This document shows, in pieces, positions 1 through 29,138 of a DNA stretch of 64,000 bases. Position numbers and translations under genes: made by a program. Position 1 is the stretch's first letter, and the number at the start of each line of letters is the position of its first letter. The notes under the pieces were generated by a model that had not been told where the DNA came from, made no database searches, and saw only the letters and a list, made by a program, of their open reading frames with translations. The stretch comes from a virus, in the IMG/VR virus record IMGVR_UViG_3300033149_004116, positions 1-64,000 of that record, one strand, 5' to 3'.

Positions 1-115
1 CCCGCCGTGCAGAATCCGAGGAGGGTGATAGCCGACTAGGTAGGATTTTTCCTCGGTCACGCACGGTTTCGGGTGCCGTCATAAAACCCACTCCGCTTTT
101 TCTTTTTTACAATCG
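1..115 (+). ncRNA. Structured region, possible 3' part of a noncoding RNA
   Basis: Two nested inverted repeats are visible: CCGTGC (5-10) with GCACGG (61-66), enclosing CCGAGGA (16-22) with TCCTCGG (50-56). A further G/C-rich stretch follows, and then a T-rich run at about 95-112 that would suit an archaeal terminator on the plus strand. No ORF fits. The 5' end would lie beyond the window edge. The strand is inferred only from the T-run. Confidence 0.4.
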
Positions 116-7863: not shown

Positions 7864-8334
7864 TTATTTTTCCTCCCTTGCTTCCCAACAGTTATCCAAG
7901 TCTTGATTTGCACTCACACATCTATATCTTGGAGCGTCATACCATCTACAAGTTTTGCACGAATTTTCAATATGTTCGCTCCTCAACATCCTTTTTAGGA
8001 CTTTTATTTCTAGTGATGGTCTTCGTAGGAGATCAAAATAATCGTTTTCAAAAAGTTCAATATCTATTTCTCCATATATATATTTATGGACTTTTTCATC
8101 ATCTAATTGTGCTTGTTCGCCACGCGCTGTAATAGAAAAATCAAATGCTCTGCCAATTTTTGATAGCACGTTTATGTTATCATCTAAATCAACGTCCCGA
8201 ACGGTGAGTTTTCTTTTCGAGTAATATTCTTGCTTCCAATCTATTTTTGCATTATATCCAAATATGGAAGTAACCAATCGGCTCAAAAGCTCGACCTTCT
8301 CCGCATCGCCAAGTTCTTTTCGCTCCCGAAACAT
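7864..8334 (-). CDS. Protein with C-terminal zinc motif
   Basis: The last 30 residues carry CKTCRWYD, then C, then C, a four-Cys site also seen in the gene at 8661-8918. I start at the ATG at 8334. The 26 residues upstream are the translation of an AT-rich promoter whose TATA box ends about 22 nt before this ATG, so the mRNA would be near leaderless. The N-terminal 120 residues have no recognised family. Confidence 0.6.
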   Translation of the reverse strand: MFRERKELGDAEKVELLSRLVTSIFGYNAKIDWKQEYYSKRKLTVRDVDLDDNINVLSKIGRAFDFSITARGEQAQLDDEKVHKYIYGEIDIELFENDYFDLLRRPSLEIKVLKRMLRSEHIENSCKTCRWYDAPRYRCVSANQDLDNCWEAREEK

Positions 8335-8355
8335 TTCAAGATTAGGTAGGAGAAG

Positions 8356-8367
8356 ATTATATATAAA
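8356..8367 (-). promoter_or_regulatory. TATA box for a near-leaderless transcript
   Basis: The minus strand reads TTTATATATAAT, centred about 28 nt before the ATG at 8334. Confidence 0.5.
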
Positions 8368-8433
8368 GATTTTGGTGTTATTGTTTTTTAAACAAAAAAC
8401 TTTGTCTGACACAACCTCGTTCTTAATTGGGAA

Positions 8434-8637
8434 TTAAAAGAAAATTTGTCAGGTCGGGGTTCCGAACCGTCATTCTTTCCATCTTATCTCTCTTATATTC
8501 TCACTTATTACGGTCGAATCTTGTCCCGCCAACGACCTACTCGTGAAGTCCCATGCTTCAACCAGCCTACCCCCGACACTTGTGCTGGTGCGGTTCTGCG
8601 TTTCCACCATATGCCCTCGGGGAATACGATGGAACAC
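8434..8637 (-). ncRNA. Putative structured noncoding RNA 1
   Basis: No ORF fits this interval, yet a TATA box (8657-8666) would start a transcript near 8637, and a T-rich stretch on the minus strand (8433-8446) would end it. Four to five hairpins line up: arms 8602-8606/8630-8634, 8561-8566/8584-8589, 8544-8548/8556-8560 with a seven-base loop, 8512-8516/8533-8537 and 8458-8461/8465-8468. GC content is far above the flanks. I could not match it to RNase P, SRP, tRNA or C/D RNA motifs. Confidence 0.55.
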
Positions 8638-8656
8638 ATAATTCTATTATATGCTT

Positions 8657-8666
8657 ATATTTAAAT
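8657..8666 (-). promoter_or_regulatory. TATA box of ncRNA 1
   Basis: The minus strand reads TAATATTTAAATATAAGC, with the box about 25 nt before the predicted RNA start. It overlaps the 3' end of the Cys-rich gene. Confidence 0.5.
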
Positions 8667-8918
8667 ATTACGGTTTCTGGGCTTTTCCCGTTTTGGGGCG
8701 AAGTGCTTACAATATCTCCATACTTCGCCAATTCGACGCATTTTGTGTCCACGAATATCACCAGTATAGCCAGAGATGTCTTCGCCAGCTTTGTCAGAAA
8801 TACACCAACCGACTGACCGATTGTAAGTGAATGACAGGGAAAACATATATCTAGGACTTCTCGTCTTAACTCCAGCATCCAACCAGAATCTGCAATCTTT
8901 ACATCTGACTTTGGGCAT
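8661..8918 (-). CDS. Cys-rich small protein
   Basis: An 85-residue protein beginning with CKDCRFWLD, with later single Cys residues (WCISDK, YCKHF). The C-x2-C-R-W/F-(Y)-D start resembles the C-terminal motif of the protein at 7864-8334, suggesting a shared zinc-binding module. GGAGTAATGTGTA precedes the ATG. The structured RNA at 8941-9055 could be its leader. Confidence 0.55.
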   Translation of the reverse strand: MPKVRCKDCRFWLDAGVKTRSPRYMFSLSFTYNRSVGWCISDKAGEDISGYTGDIRGHKMRRIGEVWRYCKHFAPKREKPRNRNI

Positions 8919-8940: not shown

Positions 8941-9055
8941 AAAAAGGAGGCGGTAGCGAACCGCCCATATTAACTTGCGGGACAACCCGCATATTCACGA
9001 CCTCGCGACCTTGCAAATCCTTCCGAGGTTCTCCCCTTGGACTTGGAGAGACATC
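8941..9055 (-). ncRNA. Putative structured noncoding RNA 2 or structured leader
   Basis: A TATA box at 9077-9084 would start RNA near 9055. Read leftward, hairpins follow at about 9031-9050, 9001-9005/9024-9028 and 8976-8981/8986-8991. A last six-bp stem (8949-8954/8960-8965) is followed at once by a run of T on the minus strand (8941-8945), which looks like a terminator. Either this is a free RNA of about 115 nt, or it controls the Cys-rich gene downstream. Confidence 0.55.
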
Positions 9056-9331: not shown

Positions 9332-10492
9332 TTACACCTCAACATACATTGGTTTATTCCCAATTTTTTTCAATCTATCCTCCGAAATTAACTCTTTTAA
9401 TTTACGATAGAATGTCGCCCGAGACATAATCTTGTATTCCTCTATTGTTCTTTCAAGCTCTGAAACCTTCCACTTATCTCTTCCAGATATTATCTCATAC
9501 AGCCTTTCCTTTAAATCTGAATTGATCAAGTTTCTATTTGCCGAAGTATATATTATTTCTCGCTTATTTATTATCGACTCCCAGAGAGTTATACTTTTAT
9601 CAATATCTACATCTTCCGCGCGAACCGTTAAACCTCCCCTCTCGTTCTTATTCTCTCTCCTTGAGACATTAAGACATACAACCGTATTAACCAAACGAAG
9701 GAGAGTTTCAAAATCGCGCGGAATCAATAAAACAGGTCTTTTCCCCCTCAAATTTTTGTTGTGCAGTTTGAATGTATCTCTCAGTCTATTTTTTTGTTTT
9801 TCCGCGAGAACTACTCTCTTTATTTTATCCATAATCCATTTAATATTCCTCAATTCGGATTTGATTCCTCCCAAATCAAAGTTTTTATCAGAAGAAAAAA
9901 ATGACATTTTATCTATTATTTTTTCATTTAGAGAAGTGTTGACTATTGTTGGAAGCATTATATCAAATCTTGATAAATCTCCCTCGCTCTGATTTATTTG
10001 AAGTCTCAAATTTTTACTGTTCAAGAACCAATCTCCCTTGGGATTTATCGCCACCATCATAACTGTCTTGGGCTTTATTGCTTTCACAAATCCCCATTTG
10101 GAGATTGTAATTGTATCATTATCTAGGAATTGTCTCAAGTATGGAATTTTGACTTTGGCATATTCGGGAATAAACATCGCTCCACTCTTACACATATCTA
10201 TTATTCCAGGTTGTATCCCATTTTTGGTCGCTATTCCCACAAAGCTCGCTTTTGTTGAATCGTCAATCCAAACATATTTTGGAGAAATTTCCGCCAATAA
10301 ATGTAAAGCAGAAGTTTTAGCCGATGATATGTCTCCACAAAAAATTGTGTGAATACTTGATCTCTTTTCGAGTCCATTAATTGGGATTTTCGGGGCATAA
10401 GCAGACATCAAACTACATATTAATAATTCCCAATTTTCTTCCCCAATCGTGATACTTCTATTCAATTTTTGAGTTATATTTTCAATAATCAT
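9332..10492 (-). CDS. mcm: MCM-like AAA+ ATPase (short, helicase core)
   Basis: MCM is the archaeal replicative helicase. Walker A is GDISSAKTS at about residues 53-61, as in the MCM form GDPxxAKS, and the arginine-finger motif LSRFD is at about 173-177. The Walker B region reads MFIPEYAKV: the catalytic Glu is kept but the usual preceding Asp is replaced by Pro. At about 386 residues it lacks the N-terminal hexamer and zinc domain of cellular MCM. It ends with a likely winged helix (SRATFYRKLKEL). The start is set at 10492 behind GGAGGGG. Confidence 0.8.
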   Translation of the reverse strand: MIIENITQKLNRSITIGEENWELLICSLMSAYAPKIPINGLEKRSSIHTIFCGDISSAKTSALHLLAEISPKYVWIDDSTKASFVGIATKNGIQPGIIDMCKSGAMFIPEYAKVKIPYLRQFLDNDTITISKWGFVKAIKPKTVMMVAINPKGDWFLNSKNLRLQINQSEGDLSRFDIMLPTIVNTSLNEKIIDKMSFFSSDKNFDLGGIKSELRNIKWIMDKIKRVVLAEKQKNRLRDTFKLHNKNLRGKRPVLLIPRDFETLLRLVNTVVCLNVSRRENKNERGGLTVRAEDVDIDKSITLWESIINKREIIYTSANRNLINSDLKERLYEIISGRDKWKVSELERTIEEYKIMSRATFYRKLKELISEDRLKKIGNKPMYVEV

Positions 10493-10496
10493 TTTC

Positions 10497-10751
10497 TCAT
10501 TTTCCCCTCCACCCATTAAAAACATCAGAAATTAATATCGGCTTATTTAATATTCTTGCTTTATTTTTATGTCCCTCTATTTTTTCGGCGTTATTGGGGA
10601 ACTTCAATCTCAATATTATCTGTCTCCCTGTTTGTTTACTAAATCTCTCCGCCTCAGTTATTGCCTCCCATCCTCTAATGGGAGGATTTATTCTTCCATT
10701 CTTGAGATATTTTAAGAATTTAGATATTGATGTTACGTGATAAACAATCAT
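10497..10751 (-). CDS. Possible ADP-ribosyltransferase-like small protein
   Basis: The 84 residues begin IVYHVTSISKFLKYLKNGRI, which resembles the H-x-T/S entry strand plus helix (H-G-T..I..G) of ADP-ribosyltransferase-fold proteins, but it is far too short for a complete ART. It may be a minimal relative or a different fold. The start at 10751 follows GGTGA. Compare the larger protein at 23544-24125. Confidence 0.35.
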   Translation of the reverse strand: MIVYHVTSISKFLKYLKNGRINPPIRGWEAITEAERFSKQTGRQIILRLKFPNNAEKIEGHKNKARILNKPILISDVFNGWRGK

Positions 10752-29066: not shown

Positions 29067-29138
29067 GGGTCGAGTTGGGAATCGAACCCAAATCTTCAGT
29101 TCCACAAACTGATATGTTTGCCATTACACCACTCGCCC
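29067..29138 (-). tRNA. tRNA-His, anticodon GTG
   Basis: The cloverleaf is complete. The D stem is 4 bp with loop AATGGCAA. The anticodon stem TCAGT/ACTGA holds loop TTGTGGA, anticodon GTG. The variable loop is AGAT, and the T arm is TTGGG-TTCGATT-CCCAA. The discriminator is C73, as expected for tRNA-His. The acceptor stem has one G3:A70 mismatch. Neither CCA nor G-1 is encoded, so host enzymes must add both. A TATA box sits 25-30 nt upstream. Confidence 0.9.

Follow-up and report, generated by a model that had tools for sequence, protein, structure and literature searches.

A GC-rich intergenic stretch of an IMG/VR virus record, here called RNA A, probably represents an independent gene, located on the minus strand, for a viral non-coding RNA that matches no known family. 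This reading of the sequence is based on the promoter geometry, a strand-specific hairpin at the 5' end, the lack of a coding signal, and several sister islands of similar layout in the same record. All coordinates refer to the analysed window, which is the whole 64,000-nt stretch covering positions 1 to 64,000 of the 100,022-bp record, unless record positions are given (Table 1).

Table 1. Features of the RNA A region and of the other GC-rich islands
Feature	Position	Strand	Remarks
TATA box of RNA A	8665-8658	-	TTTAAATA; overlaps the end of the stop codon of gene 8661-8918
Predicted RNA A transcript	8437..8635	-	about 190-200 nt; +1 at G8635, 3' end approximate
5' hairpin	8602..8634	-	UUCCAUCGUAU-U-CCC-CGA-GGG-C-AUAUGGUGGAA
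GUCGGGG	8571..8577	-	5' side of the possible 7-bp closing stem of a second domain, fold I
CCCCGAC	8453..8459	-	3' side of the fold I closing stem, partner 8571-8577
GAUGGAA	8477..8483	-	fold II partner of UUCCAUC 8634-8628, joining the RNA ends
T-rich stretch	8432..8444	-	TTTTCTTTTAATT; probable end of transcription
Small frame	ATG 8639	-	43 aa, MCSIVFPEGIWWKRR...
Small frame	GTG 8637	-	55 aa
Downstream gene	7864-8412	-	182 aa (or from ATG 8334)
TATA box of downstream gene	8360..8367	-	TTTATATA; 33 nt before ATG 8334
MCM helicase gene	9332-10525		upstream of RNA A
Island B	8944..9053	-	preceded by TTTAAATA at -30, with its first hairpin at +3; just upstream of RNA A
Island C	record 99711-99589 (L023)	-	GC-rich, TATA at -30, ends joined by a stem
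Island D	record 85312-85150 (L024)	-	TATA TTTATATA at about -30
Island E	1..112	+	closing stem CCGUGC/GCACGG, T-rich end GCTTTTTCTTTTTT; promoter outside the record
Island F	record 98680-98520 (L023)	-	GC-rich, TATA at -30, ends joined by a stem

The virus and its relatives

The record contains tailed-virus genes, which are portal- and capsid-like and have relatives in other viral contigs, as well as genes for replication proteins, namely an MCM helicase and an ATP-dependent DNA ligase. A further gene outside the window was interpreted as encoding a family B DNA polymerase, judging by its YGDSDS motif. The virus is tailed and probably infects archaea. An archaeal host is the likeliest because of the leaderless-type TATA spacing described below and the TATA box located 30 nt before the gene for tRNA-His (29067-29138), which is the sole locus of the record above the cut-off of the Rfam tRNA model. 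The closest relatives, found by capsid and polymerase scans, are three contigs (G001-G003) with a capsid identity of 61-68%, while two others (G004, G005) are remote.

A SpoU-type RNA methylase is encoded by the virus at 2119-2748 on the minus strand (Pfam PF00588, E 1e-19). A protein with an ARPP-1 domain and a winged-helix C-terminal end (record 94522-95778, L003:14523-15779, minus strand; PF20208, E 5.5e-25) is homologous to a G003 protein.

Promoter and predicted transcription start

To calibrate the promoter spacing, TATA 8-mers were scored by their distance to the start codons across the virus's own genes. They peak at -31/-30, with 4 + 3 cases compared to 0.24 expected per position, which is the pattern expected of leaderless archaeal mRNAs. 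The archaeal TATA box has been described as an 8-bp element around -27 (PMC5316973). In the studied virus, the 8-mer TTTAAATA is found exactly 30 nt before the 5' end of tRNA-His (+1 = 29138), and RNA A and island B have the identical 8-mer at the identical spacing of 30 nt. Based on the TATA spacing calibrated on the leaderless genes and on tRNA-His, the transcription start of RNA A is predicted at G8635 on the minus strand. This places the box at about -30 to -23, as in archaeal-type ncRNA genes. The initial annotation had proposed a promoter of its own with a TATA box for the region 8434-8637, and such a box was indeed found with a calibrated spacing, just outside this interval. Another TATA box, at about 8492 on the plus strand, is also compatible with the GC edge of island A. 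Therefore, the minus strand is probable for RNA A, yet not certain.

Structure and extent of RNA A

RNA A stands between two minus-strand genes, 8661-8918 upstream and 7864-8412 downstream. The locally high GC content reported for this region was confirmed, with values of 0.49 for 8434-8637, 0.55 for 8508-8639 and 0.51-0.55 for the predicted transcript compared to 0.353 for the entire record, and so were its proximity to a replication gene, the MCM helicase gene located upstream, and the T-rich end, which corresponds to TTTTCTTTTAATT at 8444-8432. By analogy to archaeal oligo-T termination, transcription would end within this stretch at about 8437.

The initial annotation had listed four to five consecutive stems, of which only the first withstood the comparison with shuffled sequences. 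This hairpin (8634-8602), found at exactly the coordinates proposed, far exceeds chance, while the four others, taken together, do not, as the whole region reaches a z-score of only -0.9. The predicted +1 base G8635 opens the hairpin, which has a stability of -21.5 kcal/mol together with its flanking pairs and would grow to 8597-8638 if the transcript started 3 nt earlier. It ranks second in fold stability among the 13,328 windows of 45 nt in the record, and RNA A ranks first among 65 strict TATA boxes by the fold energy of +1 to +45. On the minus strand, none of 200 dinucleotide shuffles matched the best hairpin (p 0.000), compared to 57.5% on the plus strand (p 0.575). This strand difference is due to G-U pairs and favours a minus-strand RNA over a DNA palindrome.

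Beyond the first hairpin, the whole-region fold has z-scores of -0.86 to -0.96, and 17% of the shuffles fold equally well. Several mutually exclusive folds lie within about 3 kcal/mol of each other. Fold I contains a possible 7-bp closing stem (8577-8571 / 8459-8453), which is not significant alone. Fold II joins the ends of the RNA and additionally pairs CCCCGA 8622-8617 with UCGGGG 8576-8571, closing the whole RNA; its stability is lower by about 2.5 kcal/mol at 37 C and nearly equal at 70 C. A secondary structure is claimed for the first hairpin only.

Other GC-rich islands in the record

A scan for TATA boxes with GC-rich, stable, non-coding sequence downstream also yielded four islands that are candidate RNAs and likewise read on the minus strand: B, with its +1 at 9053, and C, D and F, with theirs at record positions 99711, about 85312 and 98680, respectively. 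The record thus has at least four non-coding GC-rich islands of similar layout besides RNA A, plus island E, which is cut by the record start and has a fold z-score of -2.2. Island B comprises three hairpins, the last of which is a GC hairpin followed by T5 (TCCTTTTT), with a terminator-like site at 8966-8948; its best hairpin was equalled by 0 of 200 shuffles. A stem joining the ends closes C and F, and also D in its best fold. In island C this stem is GCGUAG/CUACGC, followed by ACCA and T6, which gives a tRNA-like outline that is not a tRNA by the model. The outer stem of island D is formed by AACCACAAACGCG and CGCG-ACA-UUUGUGGUU with one internal loop. For the minus-strand whole folds, the p-values against shuffles were 0.17 (A), 0.037 (B), 0.063 (C), 0.027 (D) and 0.020 (F), resulting in a combined value of about 0.001 by Fisher's method.

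An approach starting from GC-rich segments found that four of five strong non-coding islands have an edge with a TATA box located 25-36 nt ahead of it, compared to an expectation of 5.4% at random non-coding positions. The box counted for A and D was the plus-strand one, because the GC-scored edges lie inside minus-strand stems; this casts some doubt on the strand of both. Pairwise comparison of the islands with blastn gave chance-level matches only, and the idea that they are copies of one family was rejected on this basis.

Applied to the relative G003, the TATA-plus-GC test returned mainly tRNA genes, whereas no tRNA was returned in the studied record. Since it recovers the tRNAs of G003, the test does find RNA genes in such viruses. 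ARAGORN predicts 18 tRNA genes in G003 (17 when the record is read in pieces), several of which are preceded by a TATA box near -30. In the same contig, one of the Rfam tRNA matches (L014:15977-16139) spans 163 nt and appears to hold a large intron.

Searches for homologues and known families

RNA A had initially been described as possibly new, with no match to RNase P, SRP, C/D, H/ACA or tRNA. The covariance search against Rfam, run both at the cut-off and at E 10, matched no family to RNA A or to the other islands; RNase P RNA, SRP RNA, rRNA and the other Rfam families all stayed below the gathering cut-off. Inspection by eye for guide-RNA features revealed no box C/D pair and no guide pocket in the main hairpin. 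As no homologue was found in anything searched either, the description as new is supported in this sense.

These searches covered 22 related or gene-sharing viral contigs (blastn and nhmmer, no credible match), phages and plasmids (blastn, nothing significant) and IMG/VR by exact patterns (nothing significant). A single-sequence covariance model applied to the record and G001-G005 recovered only RNA A itself. Relatives collected via MCM, the 182-aa neighbour, the ligase and PolB in IMG/VR, or via MCM and the anaerobic RNR in genome contigs, do not carry the region, and queries with the capsid and the 629-aa protein described below led to more distant relatives only. Weak matches in G006, G011 and G019 are 14-22 nt long. 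DNA matches to the T-rich end in G002 and G003 were dismissed as chance, as these stretches look like ordinary coding sequence. With no homologue found, there is no covariation for RNA A. The absence of relatives is neutral with regard to function and speaks neither for nor against it.

The 629-aa protein (record 92513-94402, L003:12514-14403, minus strand) is shared with 19 loci at about 43-56% identity; apart from G003, these belong to viruses that are for the most part unrelated otherwise. It has no Pfam family. One of its homologues is 28-29% identical to proteins of the cyanophages S-CRM01 and S-CBWM1, and the AlphaFold model of a homologue consists of a helical N-terminal part and a TerD-like C-terminal domain. 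A link to Ro60 and Y RNAs via this protein was considered and discarded, as the helical and TerD-like fold includes no TROVE or vWA domain.

Alternative explanations

RNA A could be a 5' leader or cis-regulatory element that continues by read-through into the 182-aa gene and controls it, since it adjoins this gene in the same direction, its stable 5' hairpin and competing stems could form a switch, and archaeal termination at T-runs can leak. This is unlikely. The start of the downstream gene is better placed at ATG 8334 than at GTG 8412, given the TATA box 33 nt before the former and the G003 homologue of the protein, whose alignment with the longer frame does not begin before residue 30. The gene therefore appears to have a TATA box of its own, which argues against the RNA A region as its leader, and the T-rich stretch separates the two. 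The homologous gene of G003 directly follows another gene, methyltransferase-like by reading of its sequence, with no RNA A-like region between them, and the other islands of the studied record occur in unrelated gene contexts. There is likewise little chance that the virus merely acquired a GC-rich stretch without present function, with a TATA-like sequence arising by coincidence. TATA-like words are plentiful in the AT-rich DNA (495 matches in the record), no conservation was found and the whole-fold energy is not significant; the hairpin found at +1 of an exactly spaced promoter, the strand specificity of this hairpin and the recurrence of a similar layout in several islands speak, however, against such an origin.

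The two small frames across RNA A are both open near the promoter, and leaderless starts occur in this virus, so that a leaderless small protein gene starting at ATG 8639 or GTG 8637 has to be considered. It is very unlikely, as the coding z-scores are 0.34 and -0.25, respectively, compared to 2.59 +/- 0.94 for 50-codon pieces of the virus's genes and 0.63 +/- 1.04 for off-frame pieces. Both starts also precede the predicted +1 by 2-4 nt, neither Pfam nor NCBIfam matched the frames, and tblastn of the 55-aa frame against plasmids gave no meaningful match. A small leaderless protein was thus rejected by codon statistics, and the earlier statement that the region has no reading frame remains valid in the sense that none is credible. 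A TnpB/omega-RNA remnant, hinted at by TTGAAGC...GACTTCA, was also rejected, since the overlapping frame had no Pfam, NCBIfam or plasmid match. That RNA A is a tRNA or tRNA-like gene which has decayed, has been split or is unusual in another way is scarcely probable: such islands are tRNAs in G003, which carries 18 of them, many of the same promoter layout, and the closing stem of island C followed by ACCA is suggestive, but the Rfam tRNA model finds only tRNA-His and leaves the islands unmatched even at E 10. A proper T arm is missing as well; RNA A has GGUUCGGAACC, which is without the conserved A58. Intron-bearing, split or permuted tRNAs were excluded on the same grounds. Finally, a replication origin, a protein-binding palindrome or another DNA element near the MCM gene would suit the replication genes nearby. 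It is extremely improbable, as the G-U pairs weaken the hairpin on the other strand, no iterated repeats are evident by eye, and comparable islands are located far away from replication genes.

Comparison with known RNA systems

In Thermococcus onnurineus, 57 intergenic ncRNAs have been reported (PMC5316973). RNA A resembles them in its location between genes and in having its own TATA box together with a BRE-like stretch of purines about 30 nt upstream, but they are of low GC, while RNA A is viral and GC-rich. Viral tRNA genes such as those of G003 likewise stand out as GC islands from the AT-rich viral DNA around them and have a TATA box near -30, and the promoter word of the virus's own tRNA-His is identical to that of RNA A. 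In contrast to tRNA genes, RNA A has neither a tRNA model match nor a T arm and is longer (190-200 nt). The phage-associated ornate RNAs GOLLD and ROOL (PMC12286853) are large structured RNAs likewise carried by some viruses. However, they are several hundred nucleotides long, bacterial and deeply conserved with covariation, whereas RNA A is short and archaeal-type, without relatives found or an Rfam match. With Y RNAs, the partners of Ro60, RNA A shares the pairing of its ends in one competing fold and a T-rich tail thereafter, but it differs in lacking an Rfam match. No described structured RNAs of tailed archaeal viruses were found in the literature.

Possible function and significance

If RNA A is an independent gene, its TATA box of the tRNA-His type would start minus-strand transcription at G8635, and the RNA would begin directly with a very stable hairpin and carry no protein-coding signal. 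With an end at about 8437, the transcript would be about 190-200 nt long. The 5' hairpin may protect the RNA end and serve as a protein-binding site. The likeliest mode of action, itself a rather doubtful proposal, would be that of a trans-acting RNA binding a host or viral protein as a regulator or decoy, and not that of a cis leader. Within the same virus, the search for an antisense target revealed a longest complement of 13 nt, which is equal to the controls.

Apparently, RNA A is one of a small group produced by the virus (A, B, C, D, F and the truncated E), whose members are mutually unrelated in sequence. It is possible, although we would not favour it outright, that about six short, unrelated structured RNAs with tRNA-type promoters replace the tRNA array of the relative and represent a new class of viral ncRNAs that act in trans while an archaeon is being infected. 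If real, they would provide a set of viral RNA genes open to testing, with the 5' ends already predicted, of a kind that is missed by standard annotation. The combination of a GC island with a TATA box at -30, which is correct for the tRNAs of the relative, would be a simple screen that can be used on other AT-rich archaeal viruses.
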